A stretch of 64,000 nucleotides of DNA from an uncultured Clostridia bacterium (GTDB lineage: Bacteria; Bacillota; Clostridia; Christensenellales; Borkfalkiaceae): the NCBI GenBank assembly GCA_949290575.1, contig CASESJ010000005.1, positions 62,001 through 126,000 of the forward strand, read 5' to 3'. Positions 51,580 to 62,631 of this stretch are shown in pieces. Under the pieces are notes generated by a model. It was not told the origin of the DNA. It saw only the letters and a list, made by a program, of their open reading frames with translations, and searched no databases. The position numbers were made by a program, and so were the translations under genes. Within the stretch, counting starts at the first letter, position 1. Each line of letters begins with the position of its first letter.

Positions 51580-52377
51580 TTATTTGGAAAAATTCCGCCA
51601 CGCAGAATACATAGTCAGTCGGCTTTCTTTACTCATTTTTTTGCTTATGTACTTACTGCCGCGCGCAAAAAGCTGGCAAGTAAATTTATCGCCGAAAGAC
51701 TTTTTCAGAAAGGAAGCTATTTGCTCGTCGCGCAGGAAACTGCAGGAAAAAATATCTATGCGACAGCGCATGGTTTTTATGTCGTAATGCACGGCAATGT
51801 GGCTCTGTGCCACCATAACAACACCCGTTATCTGAGAGGGATTTTCCCTGCTGTCATAGATAACGTAAGGGCGGGTAATGGGCAGCATGTTTATATTGGC
51901 AGGCGCATCGTCAAGCCATCTGTAAATGCTGTCCATTGTCATTTCAAAACCCTGCGTCTCTATTAGATAATGAGGTCCAAAGTCCGCGTTCTCATTTATT
52001 TTCTTTCCTTCAACCATTCCCGGAAAGCGTCTGTCGATAACATCGACAGACATTCTATCAGCATAGAGATATTCTTTGAATGTGTCTCTGAGCTCGTCCT
52101 CTTCTATGAAAATATCGGTGAGGACATCGGCAAAGTAACACGACCTTCTGGGGAAAGTATGAATGGTTATATGCCCGTTAGCAAGTATGCAGAACGCACT
52201 TATTCCGCTGTCTTCGTAATCTTTTGACGAATAGTATGGCAATAAATACGGCGGCATTACGGGCTTTAAATTGAATTTAGCCGACAATCTTACAAGCAAC
52301 TCGTTTATGAGCATGAGACTGTCACCCTGAGTTTCTTTGACATCGTAAGCATCTATTACAAAATGTAGTTCAGACAT
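51580..52377 (-). CDS. duplicated S-adenosylmethionine decarboxylase-like protein
   Basis: This 265-residue protein has two AdoMet-decarboxylase-like halves. In bacterial SpeD/SpeH the motif ESH-x-IHxFPE contains the Ser that becomes pyruvoyl, and a later Cys acts in catalysis. Here the first half reads ANGHITIHTFP (66-76) and lacks both Ser and Cys. The second half reads AQSHIAVH (190-197) with Ser-192, His-193 and Cys-212 (IDIFSC) kept, but Gln in place of Glu. No spermidine synthase or other polyamine gene is near. It directly follows the 748-residue protein with no gap, as last gene of the cluster. Confidence 0.8.
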   Translation of the reverse strand: MSELHFVIDAYDVKETQGDSLMLINELLVRLSAKFNLKPVMPPYLLPYYSSKDYEDSGISAFCILANGHITIHTFPRRSCYFADVLTDIFIEEDELRDTFKEYLYADRMSVDVIDRRFPGMVEGKKINENADFGPHYLIETQGFEMTMDSIYRWLDDAPANINMLPITRPYVIYDSRENPSQITGVVMVAQSHIAVHYDIKTMRCRIDIFSCSFLRDEQIASFLKKSFGDKFTCQLFARGSKYISKKMSKESRLTMYSAWRNFSK

Positions 52378-54624
52378 TTAATCACCGGCCTTGTGTTTAT
52401 CAAAAATATCGTTAAATGTACTGCAGTCTATTATAAACGGGTCTACCCACCAATTACGATTAGAACGGTAGATATTTGGCAGACAATAATAATATTCGTT
52501 CATGTCGTACGAAAATTCTGTCAGTACCTTTATCTCTTTATTCTTATCCACTATACCGTTCATATTGGTATCAAGACCGATATTGAAATCTGCAACGGAA
52601 CATCCGTCATTGTTGGTTTTGCTGTTATCGTAGCTGGCTAAATAAGGATATATAGCTTTGAGACTGAGCTCATCGTTACCTGTGCTCTGTCTTGAAATTT
52701 CGCCTGTCCTGAAAAATTCCAAAATTTCAATAGCCGCATCAATGCATTCTGATATCACATTACGGCTCTCGGCATCCAGAAACTTATTGAAGAGATATTC
52801 AACGCCCGAAACATTAGCTATCTCATGTCTGCCAAGCAAAAGATGAATGTATTTACCGTTTTTGTAAATTTCCATTATGCTTTTATCTAACGAATAGCAT
52901 TTCTTGCATGTTTCCAAAAATTTAGAAAACAACTCGCCCATATTATAATTTTCATCGTCATGCTTCACGGCAAACTCTTTTGAGACTTTTGCAGCCTGGG
53001 CAATAAAACTTTGTTCGGCACGTTGCTGATACTTATAAATTTCATCTTCCTGCAAAATTTTTGTGCCGGCGACCATCTCATATTTCTGTTTCTCCTCACC
53101 ATACGCAAACATGCCCTCATAAAAGCAAATCAGTCTTCTGATCGTCTCCCCAAGAGTTATTGATATTATCTTGTTTTGCTCTGTCGAAGACATTGCGTCG
53201 CTGACGTTTCTGAGTGCGGCAATATTAGTCTGTATATCCGACGAAAAGACATATTTCCTGTCATTGCTCTTACCTATCAGCGAAACGAGCGATGACATTA
53301 TCACTTCCACCATTGCGTTTGTAAGCATGTGCTCGCGCACAGTTTCGATTTCACCCGAAATATTTACATAGTTAAACATTCCGTTGTGCTTGGGGTATAT
53401 AAGACTGTCTGCTTTCGCCTTGAGCTCTTTTTTGCTGAGATTGCCTATTTCGGGCAACAGACTGTTAAATCTTAGATTGAGATTGCTTATTATTTTATAA
53501 CAAATATTCTGATTATCCGATATAAGCTGTTTGAGAACCTGCGTCGGGCTTGTCTCTATAAGCAGCATCAGAATGACATTGTCCCAATTATAATTATCCT
53601 CGTCAAACTTATTCAGCGCGGGGTCAATCTTTACAAACGCAGCGGGATACTTGGCACCGAATGCATTAAATAAATCCTTTTTTGACTTGGAGAACTCTTC
53701 AATTCCTATACAATCAGAAATTGCAAGCGCAAGGTTTTTAAAATATTTGTACTTTACAAGATATACATTGCATATCTCGGCAGTACGCTGCTCATTTTCC
53801 CTGAACGCAAGGTCATTGCCCGTAATTTCATTGTAGTAAGACTTAGCCGACGACCTGACACCTTCTTCGCCCTCTTTAAGGTCTCCTACAGGCAAAATGC
53901 ACCGCTTGTTCTGGGAGGGGTTCTGATAACTTAAATCAAGACGATTATTTTTTACAGTGACCGTCTCGAGATAAAAAAACTTTACGGCAGGGTCTTCCCC
54001 CATAGTTATTATCATGTGGTTCAACAGGATATCATCGTCGCTCTCATCCTCGTTGTTTATCGGTCTGAAAACGAAATCTTCAAAGCTGTTGCTATATACC
54101 AGTTTGTATTTGGAAAGAAACGGCAAATTATCAATCATATCCACAAAATACGCAGAAGCGTCGTCAAGCGTAAGTTCGGAGTATCTTGCACTGTTCTGCC
54201 AGTTTTTTATGAACTGAAGATATTTGAACAATTTGAAGTTTTTATTGCCAGTTCTGAATATATCAGGCATAATATCGGCAAATTCTGAATCCTGCCCACG
54301 AAGATAATCGTAAAAAATATCCAGCAGTACATACTGCATAAGTTCGAAACTAACCGAATATTTGACATATATGTCATCAAAAATATCGATTACTCGTTTG
54401 AAGTTTGCGTTGTACTCCGAATACGAACCGCCTATATCGCCATTATCTTTGGCTTTTCTGTAAGTTGAGTAGGCATAAATAAAGGTAAGATTGAGTGCAT
54501 TGCAATATAATTCATAATAATTGGAGGCAATGTCAAAACAAGATTTGCCTGCAGCATCGCCGCCTATATATCTTCTTATATATCTGTCGGGCACTTTTTC
54601 CCTGAAAAATTTACCGGTATCCAT
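52378..54624 (-). CDS. large helical protein of unknown function
   Basis: This 748-residue protein is mostly helical and rich in Tyr, Asn, Asp and Ile, with no signal peptide. I know no family. Residues 21-28 read GGDAAGKS, which fits the bare Walker A consensus but lacks the preceding hydrophobic strand, so it may be chance. Near residue 685 a DTNMNGIVDKNKE segment resembles a calcium-binding EF-hand or dockerin loop. It starts eight bases after the ATPase stop and its own stop adjoins the start of the AdoMet-decarboxylase-like gene, so it is a fixed part of this operon. Confidence 0.85.
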   Translation of the reverse strand: MDTGKFFREKVPDRYIRRYIGGDAAGKSCFDIASNYYELYCNALNLTFIYAYSTYRKAKDNGDIGGSYSEYNANFKRVIDIFDDIYVKYSVSFELMQYVLLDIFYDYLRGQDSEFADIMPDIFRTGNKNFKLFKYLQFIKNWQNSARYSELTLDDASAYFVDMIDNLPFLSKYKLVYSNSFEDFVFRPINNEDESDDDILLNHMIITMGEDPAVKFFYLETVTVKNNRLDLSYQNPSQNKRCILPVGDLKEGEEGVRSSAKSYYNEITGNDLAFRENEQRTAEICNVYLVKYKYFKNLALAISDCIGIEEFSKSKKDLFNAFGAKYPAAFVKIDPALNKFDEDNYNWDNVILMLLIETSPTQVLKQLISDNQNICYKIISNLNLRFNSLLPEIGNLSKKELKAKADSLIYPKHNGMFNYVNISGEIETVREHMLTNAMVEVIMSSLVSLIGKSNDRKYVFSSDIQTNIAALRNVSDAMSSTEQNKIISITLGETIRRLICFYEGMFAYGEEKQKYEMVAGTKILQEDEIYKYQQRAEQSFIAQAAKVSKEFAVKHDDENYNMGELFSKFLETCKKCYSLDKSIMEIYKNGKYIHLLLGRHEIANVSGVEYLFNKFLDAESRNVISECIDAAIEILEFFRTGEISRQSTGNDELSLKAIYPYLASYDNSKTNNDGCSVADFNIGLDTNMNGIVDKNKEIKVLTEFSYDMNEYYYCLPNIYRSNRNWWVDPFIIDCSTFNDIFDKHKAGD

Positions 54625-54632
54625 AATATTAA

Positions 54633-55550
54633 TTAAAAATCATCGTCCTGCTGATTATCGTCTACTTTTATTTCCATAATTGTATCTGCAAGCCTGCTGA
54701 TTTTTTCAAGCGCAGCCTTTTCATCATCTGTAAGTTCATTAACCGGCTTGGCAGCAAGCATGCATTCGCGCCACATAAAGCTCTTTACCATTGGAATGCC
54801 CAGCCCGTGCTCCATCATATCGTAATTATACCTGTTCTTGCTGAGATTGAGCTTGAATGACTGCATTATCCTGTTGTAAGCCGTCTCGGGATAGGAATAT
54901 CCGTCTATCGTCATACTTTCCATAGGCACTACGTTGGGAACAATTATTATATCTTTGTTAATAATTTTATCTTCGTATCTCTGAAGAAACCTGCTTGTGC
55001 CCACCTGGAACTGTTCCGTAGGGCGCATGCAACAAATTATAATATCCACTTCTGCATTGGCGAGATTCGCCGTGAGCTGGTCGCCGACGGCGGAATCAAA
55101 TACCACCGCAGCGCATTTATATGTCTCGCACAGCTTACACATATCCTTGAGATAGTGATTGTTGCCCTTAGCATTGTAGTTGCTGTCTTCTATACTCGTT
55201 CCGTCGAGAGCAGGAAGAAAGAGCACAGCTTCAGGTTCCATGCCGAATTTATCGCCCACTTTGCAAAGAGAACTGAAGAACGGATGGTCGAGTATAGAAG
55301 TGCATGCGCCGTCGATTACTCCCGCGCCGAGAACTTCCTGCACGCTCGCCATGCCCGGTTTGCGCACTTCGTCCTGCATATTGAGCAGGTATGTCATACC
55401 CGCGCTGTCGATATCCAAATCAGCAATAATCAAAGGATGTTCGGGCGAAGCATTGAAGTGATATCTGTCGCACAGTATAGGCAACGTATTGAGCGCAAGG
55501 GTACTTCTACCGGCACCGCCTTTATAGGAAAAGAATGTTAATTTTTTCAT
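54633..55550 (-). CDS. ParA/MinD-like ATPase, KGGVGR-motif variant
   Basis: This 305-residue protein starts MKKLTFFSYKGGAGRSTLAL. Its deviant Walker A keeps the signature Lys-10 but has Arg-15 in place of the P-loop Lys. Matching Walker A' (ADLDIDSAGMTYLL) and Walker B (AAVVFDSAVGDQ) segments are present. Arg variants of this kind occur in ATPases found next to effector domains instead of partition genes. No centromere-like repeats or ParB are seen, so plasmid partition is unlikely. It probably drives assembly or switching of the cluster's proteins. Confidence 0.88.
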   Translation of the reverse strand: MKKLTFFSYKGGAGRSTLALNTLPILCDRYHFNASPEHPLIIADLDIDSAGMTYLLNMQDEVRKPGMASVQEVLGAGVIDGACTSILDHPFFSSLCKVGDKFGMEPEAVLFLPALDGTSIEDSNYNAKGNNHYLKDMCKLCETYKCAAVVFDSAVGDQLTANLANAEVDIIICCMRPTEQFQVGTSRFLQRYEDKIINKDIIIVPNVVPMESMTIDGYSYPETAYNRIMQSFKLNLSKNRYNYDMMEHGLGIPMVKSFMWRECMLAAKPVNELTDDEKAALEKISRLADTIMEIKVDDNQQDDDF

Positions 55551-55570: not shown

Positions 55571-57718
55571 TTATTTATTGCCTTTTTTATCGTCGTTGCC
55601 GTTTACAGCTCCGCTTTTTGCCGCGACATATGCACTCTTACCGCCTGTGCTCGAAACTATTTCCTGCACATAAATAGTAAGTAAGCTGTTTATATCCTTT
55701 TCGACATTTTCTTTGCTTTCCTTATATCTCTCTGCCCTGAGTTCGCTGCTCCAGTTCTGGTTGGTTGCATTCATCTTGTTTCTGAGAGCTTCTTTTATAT
55801 AATCGCCAAAGAAAGTCATACCGAGCTCTTTTAGATTTTTATTAAGTTTACCAAGCTTATAACGCTCCTCGTCCGAAAGTTCATTGGGCGAATTATATCC
55901 CTTGACAACATAACTGAGGAACTCGTTGATTATATCCGCAAATCCCGACCTGAGCTTGTCCATAAAGAACTTATTGAGGGTGTCCTCCACTTCAGAGCGC
56001 TTGTTAATGTATTGATTAAGCTTTTCTTCGAGTTCAGAATTATTTCGTCTTAGCTTGCCTATCGTGCCCGTTTCAGCTTCGAGTTCTTTCAGAAGATCGC
56101 TGCGAATTGTCTTTACGGTTTCGGCGTTGTCGTTTTCGATTTTTGTAAAGACCTTTTCAAATCTCTCGTAATAGTTGTAGAAAGACTGAAGCGCGAGAAC
56201 GTAGTAGTAGTTATCCGGACTGAAATAGCCGTCGCGACTCCAGCACCACTTGTATGAATAATTTTTTTCGTCGATTACGGCTCTGTTCATAAGTATCATT
56301 TCAAGATACTGAACCATCTCGAGCTGAGGATAGTTGACAAGGTATTCGCTTATGACACTCTTTGTTCTTATCAACTGCGGAATGAGCGAGAAAGCCTTTA
56401 ACCTCTTCTTTCTTATCTCTTTGCATATTTCCTTATGGAATATGAGATCCTCAGGGAATGATATAACGTATTCATCAACGATATATTCCTTGTCCTGACG
56501 CTTGAACTTATCGTAAACTCTGCTGACCTTTTCGAAAGCTATCTTTATGGTCTGAAACATATTGTCGTAATCGCTCTGCAAGATAGCCATACGAGCAAGA
56601 TCTTTATCTTCGCCCGCCTGTTTTACGGCGTAGTCCATATCTTCGTCGAGACCGCCGTTAATTATAATATTTATTACGAACAATGTATTGAAAAGCGCGT
56701 CGCTCGAAGTACTTTTGAGCATTACGTCTTCTGAAATTTTACTCTGAAGATCAGAGTTATAGAAATTTTCGGCCAATCCGTCCTTTGTACATTCCCAGAC
56801 AGCATAGGCAAGCGCGCCGCACTGTTTTCTCAATGTATCATAAAGAGACCCATCCTCAAAGACCTGTTTACCTTCGTTTATCAGTCCGAACAGCTTTGCA
56901 AGTCGCTTGCTGGACAATTTTTTCATTTCCTCGCGCGCCTTTCTAAGTTCCTTATTGTCGAAAACTTTTTTTGCGCGCCTTCTTTCTTCCAGTTCGGCAA
57001 GGTTAAGTACGGGATAAAACGCCTCATAAAAGGTAAGATATGTATCCGAAACAATGTAACTGAAATATAACGAAGGCTCTTCACATTTTTTTGTAAAATT
57101 CCAACCATTGTTCCAGGCAACAGTTTTATCTCCGACTATATAACTGTCGCAGATATATTTCAGCCCGGTATTTATTATCTCTATCATTTTATATGCTCTT
57201 TCGTCTAATTCGACTGTATAATCATATAAATAAATGAGTGCTATGGTAAGAGCGGAGACAACCCATGTAATTGTATCGGTATAGCCATATTCTTTATTGA
57301 AGAAGTTAATATCATAAGGAGAAGCGTCGAATATAATATTTCTCCCATCCTTCATAACAGAGGATATTATATTATCTACGCTTTCTGCTATGATGTTTGA
57401 AATGTCTTTCTCGTTTTCATCTGCCACATCAAAATAATTTGCAATGGTAGCCAGAGTAAGTAACCCTTGCGACTGAGACAGCGTACCGATAATTTTTTGC
57501 TCCTGCGAAAGAAAAAAGCCTTGTCTGCCACCCGCCTTACCATATGCAAGTCCGCCGCTGAGCATTTCATCGAGGATGCGACTGCCTATTTCAGACTTAT
57601 CGCGATACTCGCAGAAGATACCGTTTTTGCGCAAAATAATTTCGCGAAGTTCCGGGCTATAATCTTTCAGAGAATCGTTTTCGAGTTCCTCAGCCTTGAA
57701 CATATTTTCTTTTTCCAT
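55571..57718 (-). CDS. large helical protein, possibly alpha/alpha toroid, with C-terminal coiled coil
   Basis: This is a 715-residue protein whose start is the second of two adjacent ATGs, five bases after GGGAGG. The N-terminal half has repeated paired helices with Trp/Tyr/Gly turns (GYTDTITWVVSALTIALIYL, then GNNGW-like AWNNGWNFTKK). This recalls alpha/alpha-toroid folds such as terpenoid cyclase-like domains, but no DxDD or DDxxD catalytic motif is obvious. A coiled coil lies at about residues 525-585. No family is recognised. It lies between the TIR and ATPase genes. Confidence 0.85.
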   Translation of the reverse strand: MEKENMFKAEELENDSLKDYSPELREIILRKNGIFCEYRDKSEIGSRILDEMLSGGLAYGKAGGRQGFFLSQEQKIIGTLSQSQGLLTLATIANYFDVADENEKDISNIIAESVDNIISSVMKDGRNIIFDASPYDINFFNKEYGYTDTITWVVSALTIALIYLYDYTVELDERAYKMIEIINTGLKYICDSYIVGDKTVAWNNGWNFTKKCEEPSLYFSYIVSDTYLTFYEAFYPVLNLAELEERRRAKKVFDNKELRKAREEMKKLSSKRLAKLFGLINEGKQVFEDGSLYDTLRKQCGALAYAVWECTKDGLAENFYNSDLQSKISEDVMLKSTSSDALFNTLFVINIIINGGLDEDMDYAVKQAGEDKDLARMAILQSDYDNMFQTIKIAFEKVSRVYDKFKRQDKEYIVDEYVISFPEDLIFHKEICKEIRKKRLKAFSLIPQLIRTKSVISEYLVNYPQLEMVQYLEMILMNRAVIDEKNYSYKWCWSRDGYFSPDNYYYVLALQSFYNYYERFEKVFTKIENDNAETVKTIRSDLLKELEAETGTIGKLRRNNSELEEKLNQYINKRSEVEDTLNKFFMDKLRSGFADIINEFLSYVVKGYNSPNELSDEERYKLGKLNKNLKELGMTFFGDYIKEALRNKMNATNQNWSSELRAERYKESKENVEKDINSLLTIYVQEIVSSTGGKSAYVAAKSGAVNGNDDKKGNK

Positions 57719-57742
57719 CATATCCTCCCTGATAAATATCCT

Positions 57743-58885
57743 TTAGATATCTTGTTTGTTTAATTTTTTTACCAAATCATTTAATGAGATTTTTATAACC
57801 GGTCTAACGCCCTGCTCGCTCTCTCTGAACCGCCAACCATGCTTATAGACCTCGCCCTTATCATTGACGGACGCCTGAAGCGCCGCACCAGCTCCTTTAT
57901 CCGCTATCCACCAACTTACTTCCGCCATATGCGCCGCACCTGTGCACTTCGCTTTCATTAAATTTTTATTATCGTCATTAAAATCTGCTCTGCATGCCAG
58001 CCTGACTGGGGCTTTAAGCATTGTACGCTCTTCGTCATTAAAGGCTGTTTGCGTAAAATAATTCTGCAGCCAGAAGTTGAGTTCATCGCCGCCCTTTCTT
58101 ACTGCGATAATATCTTCTGTTATCATATAAACATCGTCGCCGTTTTTGTTGAGCACGCGCCAGTGCAAATCGCTGCGAAAATAAAACTCACCCTCATATT
58201 CTATAACGTCGGCAACAGAAACCAGCCCGTTGCCGAAAGCAGGATTTTCTGTCCGCTTATCACAGAATTTTCCGAAAAAGTAGACGTATTCGCCGTTCGT
58301 CGTCTCCGCGTCCCCTCGTTTTGCAAGATTTTTCAACACCACAGACAAATCATCTGTCGCATATACTTCTTTTGCCTTTTCATACACGGTTTCACAGACT
58401 TCTTTCCCCGAACGACGCGCAATAAAAATAATTTCCGAGGCGAACACTTCGGCAATCTGCTTCACCCTGTAAAGAGGAAAATACTTCTCCGCATCATACC
58501 CCTCTTCTTTAATCTTGCAGAAAGTATCGCGTAAAATCTGCAGCGTGGAAAGCCCGTCGGGATTTATGCTGACATAAAAAAACCCTCTGCTCTTTTTCTG
58601 TCGCATAGCCTCAAGCGTCCATGCCCTCTCTTCCTCGACAGGCTGACTGAGATAGGAACTGACGCTTGAATAAAACAGCACCCCGAGACAGTTCGGATGA
58701 AGAATAATGTCTCTCGCGCGGTGTTTCCAGTTATCTCCGCACTCCATATCCTTATCCCACCATAACCTCACGCCCATAGAGTACATTTGCCTTGTGTCTG
58801 CAAGTACAATATCGTAATCCCCGTGAGAATAGCTGATAAACAAAAACGGCTTTTTTACGACTTCTTCTTCCGAATAATACTCCAC
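57743..58885 (-). CDS. TIR domain protein with C-terminal DUF6273-like domain
   Basis: This 380-residue protein starts at GTG. Residues 12-140 are a TIR domain: FLFISYSHGDYDIVLADTRQ, LWWDKDMECGDNWKHRARDI and VLFYSSVSSYLSQPVEEERA, with Glu residues around 84-92 in the place of the NADase Glu. The C-terminal ~180 residues (EYVYFFGKFC, SDLHWRVLNK, ending GVRPVIKISLNDLV) fit DUF6273, a beta-rich domain often outside or at the end of signalling proteins. It is the first gene of the cluster. TIR domains in bacteria cleave NAD+ or act as adaptors. Confidence 0.86.
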   Translation of the reverse strand: MEYYSEEEVVKKPFLFISYSHGDYDIVLADTRQMYSMGVRLWWDKDMECGDNWKHRARDIILHPNCLGVLFYSSVSSYLSQPVEEERAWTLEAMRQKKSRGFFYVSINPDGLSTLQILRDTFCKIKEEGYDAEKYFPLYRVKQIAEVFASEIIFIARRSGKEVCETVYEKAKEVYATDDLSVVLKNLAKRGDAETTNGEYVYFFGKFCDKRTENPAFGNGLVSVADVIEYEGEFYFRSDLHWRVLNKNGDDVYMITEDIIAVRKGGDELNFWLQNYFTQTAFNDEERTMLKAPVRLACRADFNDDNKNLMKAKCTGAAHMAEVSWWIADKGAGAALQASVNDKGEVYKHGWRFRESEQGVRPVIKISLNDLVKKLNKQDI

Positions 58886-59228: not shown

Positions 59229-61289
59229 ATGTATATTTTTTTAACCGTTGCGGCACTCGTCTTCGAGGCGATTTTAGCCGCGGTAATTGTTTATAACTGC
59301 GTGCGCAGAAGACAGATAATCTCGCAGAAAACGCTGTGGTACGCCATACCGGTATTTATTCTGATATACTTTCTGTATGCGACGGGCTACACCTATGCAG
59401 GAAACGAATGGACGGCGGTTGCCGCTATAAATATGCTCTCTGCTACGCTGCGCGCCTTTGTCTTTGACATAAGCACGTCCTACGTTGAGGCTCTCACGGG
59501 CGCAAACCCCGCCTACCTCGTCGCTGTATGCATTGCATTTGTGTTTGCGGGCGCGACGACGATATCTTCGGTAATCGCGTTCTTCGGCAGACGTCTTGTA
59601 AACGGAGCGCGCCTTGCCGCGGCGATTAAAAACGGCAGAGAGTTCGTGCTGGGCACGAGCGAAAATTCTATATCTTACGCCGAACGCAACGGCGCGATAA
59701 TTGTCGCACCCGTCACGGACGCGCAGTTGCATGAACTCATGCGCCGCAGCATACCCGTTCTGCGCAGAGATCTCGGGGCAGAACACGGGGCTTCCCCCGC
59801 AGCCTACCTCAGACACCGCCTCGTTAAGGGTGCAATGTACCACTTCATCGCATTCAAGGACAACAACTTTGTCTGTTCCGAACTCATTTCGCAGTTCAAC
59901 GCGCAGTTCAGCGCACTATGCGACACGGGCTTTACGCTACACGTGCAGGCTGCGCTGACCGAAATGGACATAATCAACCGCAAATTCATAGACAGCGAAA
60001 AGAAGGACAACATCTGCATAAAGTCGTTCAGCAAGTATGAGCTTGCTTCGCGCAAATTCATAATCGAACACCCCATAAGCAGATATCTGCCCGAGAATTT
60101 TTACCTTGAAAACCGCGCCATCCGCCCCGAAAAGAACATAAACGCCGTCTTTATAGGGCTGGGCAAGGTCAACTACGAGCTTATGAAACTGATGATTATG
60201 CAGAACCAGTTCGTGGGGACGGACGGCAAAAAGCTCATAAATCACCCCGTAAACTATTACGGTTACGACTGCGACGAGGGCAGAATTTATGCCGACACCT
60301 TTCTTTCGACCGACTTCGATTGCAGCGAAATGCACTCGCCCGACCTGCCTCCGCCCGAGAAGGTATGCAACGTAGTCGAGATGAAAAAACAGAACGTGCA
60401 CAGCGCACAGTTCGTTAGCGGGTTAAAGTCGGTTTTATGCGACGAAAACTCCTTCAGCTTCGTCATCGTCTCCCTCGGCGACGACTATCAGAACGTAGCC
60501 TATGCCGAGCGGCTGAACAGTATTATAAGGTGCAAAAACGTTAAATTTTTCGCCCGCGTCAGGGATAACGACTTCAACAGAGCGGGCTCACGTTCGGAGG
60601 TGACAATGTTCGGCAACGAGCGCGAAATTCTCTCGCGTTCGGTCATAATAAACGACGCGCTGGACGGCGTCTGTCGCAGACTTAACAACATATACAACAG
60701 CAACACAAAGGCGGAAATAAAGGCGTTCAACCGCCGCCCCACCGTGGAAATATTTTCCAATATATACCACGCAACCAGCATATTCTTCAAGATAAATCTG
60801 CTCGGTCTCGACTTCGTCAAAGCACAAAACGCCGACGGCGCACAGGCAATAACCAGGCAAGAATTTATGAATATGTTCAAGGGCTTCGACGCGCACAGCG
60901 GCTACGAAAAGTACTTCGGACTGAGCGCGTGGAACGTTCTGGGCTTTTCCGAACACTCGAGGTGGATAGCCTACTACGTGCTCAAGGGCTTCCGCCCAAT
61001 GCCGCTGTCCGGGACGCGTTTCGAAGAAGTCACCGAAAACGGCAAAACATTAATCAAGGCGACTACAAAGAACATCCCCGCCCGCCTGCACTGCTGCATG
61101 ACCGACTATTACGGACTTGATAAGTACCATAAATTCCTGCTCGCTTCTTACAGAAAGTTACAGTCGGGCAAGAACACTACAATCGACGACGTCGAGACAT
61201 ATAAGTACGACTATATGTTCATACTCGACGCATTCGACGAAATGCAGCAGAACGGCTACGTGCTTATTAAAAACACCCTGCACGACTGA
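59229..61289 (+). CDS. membrane protein with TrkA-N-like and RyR-like domains
   Basis: This is a 686-residue protein. Four membrane helices lie in residues 1-120. A nucleotide-binding Rossmann-like pattern then appears (AVFIGLGKVNYELMKLMIMQ, about residue 298, followed by a strand ending YGYDCDEG and FSFVIVSLGDDYQNVAYAE). This resembles TrkA-N/RCK domains that gate channels. Near residue 575 SEHSRWIAYYVLKGFRPMPL and later HCCMTDYYGLDKYHKF resemble the RyR domain of ryanodine receptors and its bacterial relatives. It is divergent from the TIR gene but has host-like codon use, so it need not be part of that cluster. Confidence 0.75.
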   Translation: MYIFLTVAALVFEAILAAVIVYNCVRRRQIISQKTLWYAIPVFILIYFLYATGYTYAGNEWTAVAAINMLSATLRAFVFDISTSYVEALTGANPAYLVAVCIAFVFAGATTISSVIAFFGRRLVNGARLAAAIKNGREFVLGTSENSISYAERNGAIIVAPVTDAQLHELMRRSIPVLRRDLGAEHGASPAAYLRHRLVKGAMYHFIAFKDNNFVCSELISQFNAQFSALCDTGFTLHVQAALTEMDIINRKFIDSEKKDNICIKSFSKYELASRKFIIEHPISRYLPENFYLENRAIRPEKNINAVFIGLGKVNYELMKLMIMQNQFVGTDGKKLINHPVNYYGYDCDEGRIYADTFLSTDFDCSEMHSPDLPPPEKVCNVVEMKKQNVHSAQFVSGLKSVLCDENSFSFVIVSLGDDYQNVAYAERLNSIIRCKNVKFFARVRDNDFNRAGSRSEVTMFGNEREILSRSVIINDALDGVCRRLNNIYNSNTKAEIKAFNRRPTVEIFSNIYHATSIFFKINLLGLDFVKAQNADGAQAITRQEFMNMFKGFDAHSGYEKYFGLSAWNVLGFSEHSRWIAYYVLKGFRPMPLSGTRFEEVTENGKTLIKATTKNIPARLHCCMTDYYGLDKYHKFLLASYRKLQSGKNTTIDDVETYKYDYMFILDAFDEMQQNGYVLIKNTLHD

Positions 61290-61611: not shown

Positions 61612-62631
61612 TCAGATGCCCTGAGGCGCAGCGTTTCTGGGACGCTTTCTGAGTTCGTCCTCTATGCGCTCGCAGGCTTCCTGAAGGTCAGCCTCCGTCT
61701 CGGCGACGTCTATGCCGTCGAGGATGTTCTGGAGTTTGTATTCCTTATTAAGATATCTTATAGTCTGGAAGCCTATAACCGCCGTCATGGTGCCGTTTGC
61801 AAGCCCCTGAATGGAGCTGTCGACGAGCGCGGAGATTGCCGAACCGAGGAAGGGTATGCCCTTTGCGGCGTCGCCCATGGTCTTGACAATGCCGTTGCCC
61901 AGCTTTACCGAGCCCAGCCCGTAGGAGATGAGCGAATTCTGCAGTACCGCGCCGAAGATTTTTACAAGGCGCGCGTCCGACGGACGGAAGCCGTATAAAA
62001 AGACTATGTCCTTTATCATCTGCAGGTTGATTACGGAGACGAGAGCCGCGTCGAGGCGGGAGTTCTGGGAAATTGCCGAGTACGCCGCAGATTTGAGCGA
62101 GCACTTGAAAATAATTTCCTTTGCCGTCTTTTTGACCTTGCCGTTGTAGAGCGCGGTGAGGGCGACTTTAAGCCCCTCGTCGTCGCCGCTCTTGAGCGCG
62201 ACGTCGAGGTCGCCCACCAGTTTGTCGTCGTACCAGCCCGCTCCGTCCACGCTGTTGTTGAAGTCGACCATCTTTGACGCTATGTTGCGGCGCACCTTCT
62301 TGTTGTGCCTTTTGGCTTTACCCGCGTGAGCGGAGTTGACGTTGGTGACGAAGTAGTCCGACTTATAAATTTTGACTACGGGCACGATGAAGAGGAATAT
62401 GTAAAGTATGACGGAAATCGCCGTAGCGGCATAGCCCGCGTATTCGTGTATCTGCCATACCTGCATTGTTATGGAAAACAGACACCACGCTAAAAAGACG
62501 CCCACAAGCCCCGCCACGATGAAGAGCAGCAGCTTTGCGCCCTTTGAATTCTGTCTTCTGACGTACTTATCCTCGTATTCGTAGATAGTCATGCCCTGTT
62601 CGGGCACAATGTTTTTATCCTTTTTGCTCAT
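61612..62631 (-). CDS. DUF697/YcjF-like membrane protein
   Basis: This 339-residue protein has two membrane helices near residues 34-58 and 65-86 (LLLFIVAGLVGVFLAWCLFS). The C-terminal helical region (KGIPFLGSAISALVDSSIQG and nearby) resembles the DUF697 domain often linked to small GTPases and to YcjF. No GTPase gene is near. It is the last gene of an operon with rsmI, 15 bases apart. Confidence 0.75.
   Translation of the reverse strand: MSKKDKNIVPEQGMTIYEYEDKYVRRQNSKGAKLLLFIVAGLVGVFLAWCLFSITMQVWQIHEYAGYAATAISVILYIFLFIVPVVKIYKSDYFVTNVNSAHAGKAKRHNKKVRRNIASKMVDFNNSVDGAGWYDDKLVGDLDVALKSGDDEGLKVALTALYNGKVKKTAKEIIFKCSLKSAAYSAISQNSRLDAALVSVINLQMIKDIVFLYGFRPSDARLVKIFGAVLQNSLISYGLGSVKLGNGIVKTMGDAAKGIPFLGSAISALVDSSIQGLANGTMTAVIGFQTIRYLNKEYKLQNILDGIDVAETEADLQEACERIEDELRKRPRNAAPQGI

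Follow-up and report, generated by a model that had tools for sequence, protein, structure and literature searches.

A tandem SpeD-like protein in a TIR-effector cassette of an uncultured Clostridia bacterium is a probable pyruvoyl basic-amino-acid decarboxylase

The last gene of a five-gene cassette in a 64,000-nucleotide stretch of DNA from an uncultured Clostridia bacterium (the window) encodes a protein in which two SpeD-type domains are fused. We consider it probable that this protein is a pyruvoyl basic-amino-acid decarboxylase, in which the two domains make up one site, and that it forms the metabolic part of a TIR-effector cassette. The features of the protein are as follows.

51580..52377, minus strand: tandem SpeD-like protein, 265 aa, last gene of the cassette (PF02675 twice, E 1.6e-23; AF2 model and PDB match)
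52015..52377, minus strand: copy 1, residues 1-121, uncleaved half with ANGH, Ser60 and His73 (residues 1-121 align to Thermotoga maritima SpeD)
51649..51996, minus strand: copy 2, residues 128-243, predicted cleaved half with Ser192, His193, His197 and Cys212 (conservation; residues 180-217 aligned to 1tlu)
51799..51807, minus strand: QSH motif, predicted autocleavage between Gln191 and Ser192 (sequence; Ser192 and His193 invariant, preceded by Gln or Glu)

A sequence-only reading of this DNA had proposed a tandem AdoMet-decarboxylase fold, and both halves bear it out in sequence and in fold. Two stretches of the protein matched the AdoMet_dc family in Pfam, and an AF2 model built from 80 sequences reached a mean pLDDT of 92.5 and a pTM of 0.88. 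Among solved structures, this model matched T. maritima SpeD (1vr7) best, with Z 15.1 over 114 residues, followed by human AdoMetDC (1jl0), with Z 14.5 over 205 aligned residues within model positions 1-238, so the structure prediction and SpeD comparison which that reading had called for recovered the fold rather than its absence. Copy 1 repeatedly matched the C-terminal half of the human enzyme (model 1-115 to 172-286, rmsd 2.3-2.4). The protein scored below the cut-off of the NCBIfam equivalog for bona fide SpeD, TIGR03330 (60.2 vs 75.65 bits).

Alignment to 2iii placed ANGH of copy 1, at residues 66-69, where bona fide SpeD has ESH, and Asp88 at the position of the catalytic Cys, in agreement with what had been read from the sequence; a near-invariant Cys80 is present in this copy, away from the catalytic Cys position. 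Copy 2 carries QSH at residues 191-193 and retains His197 and Cys212, again as claimed. The residues S60, H73, S192, H193, H197 and C212 were invariant among 80 aligned relatives from several phyla, and the conservation of the last four argues that the QSH of copy 2 is not a product of chance. The description of copy 1 as dead was rejected: only the cleaved Ser and the Cys are lost, and its Ser60 and His73, the equivalents of T. maritima Ser55 and His68 and of human Ser229 and His243, are kept in every one of these relatives. In human AdoMetDC, the cleaved Ser68 lies in the N-terminal half and its processing needs Ser229 and His243 of the C-terminal half, T. maritima Ser55 being the counterpart of Ser229 (PMC3975893). 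The residue set of self-processing SpeD (equivalents of Ser63, His68 and Cys83) is present in the window protein as Ser192, Cys212 and His197 of copy 2 and His73 of copy 1, and the Ser55 equivalent in copy 2 is Thr184. In a divergent relative (locus L010), copy 2 has Gln at the Ser55-equivalent position and Tyr at that of His197, with Ser192 and Cys212 kept; since its copy 2 has lost the Ser/His pair and its copy 1 has kept its own, one composite site per chain is suggested.

Most likely, judging from these residues, both halves form one composite pyruvoyl site, with a predicted contact between the copies, as a mirror image of the eukaryotic enzyme. Copy 2 would be cleaved before Ser192, which would become the pyruvoyl group, Cys212 would also come from copy 2, and Ser60 and His73 would be contributed by copy 1 to the shared site. 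The eukaryotic class 2 enzyme likewise builds one active site from two fused halves, but the arrangement is reversed, with human Ser68 in the N-terminal half and Ser229/His243 in the C-terminal half, whereas Ser192 of the window protein is C-terminal and Ser60/His73 are N-terminal; the fusion in the window protein presumably arose independently of the eukaryotic one. The duplication in this protein would thus mirror, in a bacterium, the one that gave rise to eukaryotic AdoMet decarboxylase, and the composite-site model is testable in either half. Two SpeD homologues per chain are also found in SpeD1-SpeD2 fusions, including that of Victivallis vadensis with a degraded SpeD2; in these fusions AdoMet decarboxylase activity resides in the N-terminal half (PMC10407285), whereas the cleavage Ser of the window protein is retained in its C-terminal half.

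The other genes of the cassette, and a divergent neighbor, are listed below.

57743..58885, minus strand: TIR-domain protein, 380 aa, first gene of the cassette (PF13676 TIR_2, E 6.1e-7)
55571..57721, minus strand: gene Y, 716 aa, alpha/alpha-toroid at about 27-525 and C-terminal coiled coil (AF2 pLDDT 83; Z 18-20 to toroid proteins)
54633..55550, minus strand: KGGxGR P-loop ATPase, MinD/ParA-like, 305 aa, SYKGGAGRST (NF047398 E 2e-9, 38.1 bits, below the cut-off of 90; motif conserved)
52378..54624, minus strand: gene X, 748 aa, no assigned fold (only the first ~230 aa kept in some relatives)
59229..61289, plus strand: divergent gene for a 686-aa protein with N-terminal hydrophobic segments, possible accessory partner (homologues near at least nine other cassettes)

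A single-sequence query of genome and viral contigs for relatives of the tandem protein returned nothing, and a query with an alignment returned 143 relatives. The loci analyzed numbered 81, namely the window and 80 from GTDB genomes. The window cassette runs on the minus strand in the order TIR, Y, KGGxGR ATPase, X and SpeD. The ATPase was present at 43 of the 81 loci, and the order Y-KGG-X-SpeD was kept in all 43 of these cassettes, two of which are interrupted by a contig end. The stop-to-start gap between X and SpeD is 0 bp in the window, and its median over the 43 cassettes is 4 bp. The window's subtype, with TIR and no agmatine enzyme, accounted for 27 of the 43, plus one with extra TIR genes; seven combined TIR with an agmatine deiminase, and six had an agmatine deiminase and a membrane protein replacing TIR. 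The cassette of L010, found by another search, has a membrane protein and an agmatinase-family gene. The 686-aa protein had no Pfam match and was found in 2/26 same-genus genomes, and its homologues lie near the cassettes of L055, L057, L061, L065, L070, L076, L094, L167 and L168. A DUF697 membrane-type protein is encoded near the window cassette (61612-62631, minus strand). In one cassette subtype, a radical-SAM gene and a PPDK_N/PEP-utilizer gene lie directly 3' of SpeD at L065 (10795-13979) and L066 (10817-13993), and ORF pairs of similar size follow SpeD at L061 and L073; the TIR protein of this subtype, read at L066 (2733-3875), has C-terminal BspA-type leucine-rich repeats.

A search with Y detected 26 of the 396 genomes of the order, including all 17 SpeD-positive genomes; within the family, SpeD was found in 5/151 genomes. 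The neighborhoods of eight of the nine SpeD-less, Y-positive genomes were read. A PLP-dependent Orn/Lys/Arg decarboxylase ends the operon at two of these loci (E 2e-68 and 1e-69), a GNAT acetyltransferase gene follows X at three, and a radical-SAM gene precedes Y at three. Enzymes of this PLP family (PF01276) accept Arg, Orn and Lys. That an unrelated PLP decarboxylase takes the place of a pyruvoyl enzyme in operons of this kind is the best indication that basic-amino-acid decarboxylation may matter to the cassette, but a decarboxylase would not be the sole fitting enzyme, because the other SpeD-less cassettes have the acetyltransferase or radical-SAM gene.

These results bear on the ligand-binding role that the sequence-only reading had also offered, which we framed as a dead, unprocessed SpeD fold that binds polyamine, AdoMet or arginine and acts as the cassette's sensor or regulator. 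The half-degenerate duplication and the Gln in place of Glu at the cleavage site agree with such a role, and Leishmania ADL is an AdoMetDC-like protein without autocatalytic cleavage (PMC3686867). However, a pseudo-enzyme need not keep Ser192, His193, His197 and Cys212, which were invariant, and an unrelated active-type decarboxylase can occupy the same slot. The Gln itself had been taken as a sign of decay, which was rejected as Gln is as frequent as Glu across the tandem family: it precedes the cleavage Ser in 29/29 relatives whose cassettes have no agmatine enzyme and in 14/20 agmatinase-linked relatives. We regard the sensor role as unlikely, although it is the best placed of the alternatives.

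Returning to the decarboxylase reading, we assessed its substrate from the host genome and the gene context of relatives. Spermidine synthase is the obligatory partner of bona fide AdoMet decarboxylase. The window genome (1.54 Mb, 95.9% complete) gave no match to spermidine synthase (PF01564), and no second SpeD, agmatinase or agmatine deiminase was found in it; one other Orn/Lys/Arg decarboxylase-family gene lies elsewhere on the window contig. Li et al. recognized neofunctionalized SpeD proteins, the arginine and ornithine decarboxylases, by the presence of a SpeD homologue where spermidine synthase is missing (PMC10407285), and the earlier suggestion of a new substrate for the duplicated, half-degenerate fold is probably right. 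The placement of the protein outside any polyamine operon held for the window locus and failed for close relatives, which adjoin agmatinase or agmatine deiminase genes. An agmatinase-family gene lies beside or near the tandem SpeD gene, with no cassette, at 20/81 loci, and directly upstream of it at 19 Bacilli-type loci among these 20. Thirteen Bacilli genomes with the agmatinase-SpeD pair gave no match to PF01276, and only weak methyltransferase-like matches, none convincing, to spermidine synthase. The L105 genome, which has a SpeD-SpeE-SpeB operon and was the fourteenth searched, matched both families strongly. The cassettes of relatives contain agmatine deiminase (PF04371, lowest E 6e-94) or agmatinase/arginase (PF00491, E 2e-63), assigned at the level of the Pfam family as regards agmatinase vs arginase and agmatine vs peptidyl-arginine deiminase, with active-site motifs intact in most copies. 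As both exchange in one slot, agmatine is suggested as their common substrate.

The tree separated the cassette and agmatinase-linked proteins from the myxobacterial and L105 group (100/100). Proteins linked to agmatinase formed a group nested among the cassette groups, and this group included L010, whose cassette has an agmatinase, and the clade of the window protein was bracketed by agmatine-linked clades. The myxobacterial loci (L082-L116, Myxococcota) encode tandem SpeD proteins with an HTFS-type copy 1 and an ESH copy 2, and neither an agmatine enzyme nor a cassette was detected near them. Conversion of arginine to agmatine is most likely, in view of the agmatinase genes adjoining SpeD, the 13 genomes missing PF01276 and spermidine synthase, and the tree placement; ornithine or lysine is possible. 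To our knowledge, no member of the tandem SpeD family has been assayed. The sister clades carry an agmatine-using enzyme nearby and the window genome has none; as both agmatinase and agmatine deiminase are missing from it, any agmatine formed in this host would lack a known onward use. The closest described enzymes are the SpeDA arginine decarboxylases, which resemble the window protein and its relatives in the SpeD fold, the processing residues, the missing spermidine synthase and, for the relatives, the adjoining agmatinase or agmatine deiminase; SpeDA class 1b is single-domain, whereas the window protein joins two domains, one of them degenerate, is encoded in a TIR cassette and has a predicted activity (Li et al. 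2023, PMC10407285).

Decarboxylation of ornithine or lysine, to putrescine or cadaverine, ranks second among the alternatives and is improbable. SpeD-derived ornithine decarboxylases are known (PMC10407285), and the PF01276 family that replaces SpeD in the slot contains ornithine and lysine enzymes, but the partner enzymes of relatives use agmatine or arginine, not ornithine or putrescine.

AdoMet itself is an unlikely substrate, as the genome has no spermidine synthase and both AdoMet-contact glutamates are replaced. In human AdoMetDC, Glu67 and Glu247 contact the adenine base and the ribose of AdoMet, respectively (PMC1282579, PMC3686867), and the corresponding residues of the window protein are Gln191 and Arg77. 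The loss of Glu at position 77 was rejected as proof against AdoMet, and Arg77 does not settle the matter: members of the L105 group, which their gene context marks as probable AdoMet decarboxylases, have no Glu at this position either. The Pro conserved in AdoMetDC, taken as Pro76 on the assumption that this is the column of the published logo, is kept in the window protein and is Ser in many relatives; this Pro is described as not conserved in the SpeDA arginine decarboxylases (PMC10407285). A true AdoMet decarboxylase, whose product, decarboxylated AdoMet, would feed spermidine synthesis or act as a signal, is the least probable alternative: the fold and processing residues agree with SpeD, and the gene of one deep relative, L105, shares an operon with those of spermidine synthase and agmatinase, but the missing synthase, the replaced glutamates, the TIGR03330 score and the position of agmatine-linked clades nearest on the tree all stand against it.

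The presence of TIR, the patchy distribution and the exchange of TIR for a membrane protein led us to infer that the cassette is a mobile, TIR-effector, defense-type system with a polyamine-enzyme module. TIR immune systems are known to use NAD-derived signals. Like Thoeris and CBASS-TIR, the cassette has a TIR protein in a patchy multigene operon, but it differs from them in its alpha/alpha-toroid and KGGxGR ATPase core and in its polyamine-enzyme slot. No PADLOC model of a described antiphage system fitted the cassette, which gave weak domain hits only. In its flanks, PADLOC detected few known defense genes, mainly mad3/mad8 hits, which were discarded as proof of a defense island, one having been traced to part of an 811-aa protein. 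Beside the ABC-transporter neighbor in a same-genus genome (73% identity, 5.7-kb contig) no cassette gene was found. In the open literature, we found nothing that connects TIR or antiphage systems with AdoMet decarboxylase or agmatine, no paper on the KGGVGR motif and no description of the cassette with an N-degenerate tandem SpeD, although a prior one in subscription papers is possible; the searched passages of a paper on NTP-dependent conflict systems contain no matching cassette.

In the mechanism we propose, Y, the KGGxGR ATPase and X would be the constant core of the five-gene mobile cassette, and the TIR protein, or the membrane protein in some relatives, would be the likely killing effector. 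The composite pyruvoyl site would convert arginine to agmatine, and the polyamine made or removed by the SpeD-like enzyme may set or modulate the response of the cassette to an invader. Coupling to TIR could operate through the product as a modulator, through a TIR co-substrate, or through local removal of arginine. SpeD-derived decarboxylases are slow, several having a published kcat of about 0.1-0.5 per second (PMC9992855, PMC10407285), so bulk arginine depletion is the less likely of these options. It is conceivable, but doubtful, that the cassette is a new immune system whose TIR protein takes agmatine, or a similar small polyamine, as its second messenger or co-substrate, for example in an ADP-ribose-agmatine conjugate; agmatine deiminase or agmatinase would then be the off switch in those subtypes that encode one. 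The AdoMet-derived or nucleotide signal previously suggested for the TIR protein found no supporting evidence. The cassette suggests that TIR-type defense and polyamine chemistry are linked in a way not described before, and a TIR cassette with a polyamine-type decarboxylase, exchangeable with an unrelated one, would, if true, be new chemistry in bacterial immunity.

A plasmid search for relatives of the tandem SpeD protein gave no match, and a phage search gave three distant matches (26-33% identity). In Microcystis phage MW495066 (248273-249051), two adjacent genes annotated as speH, with 26% identity to the tandem protein, are perhaps one split gene.
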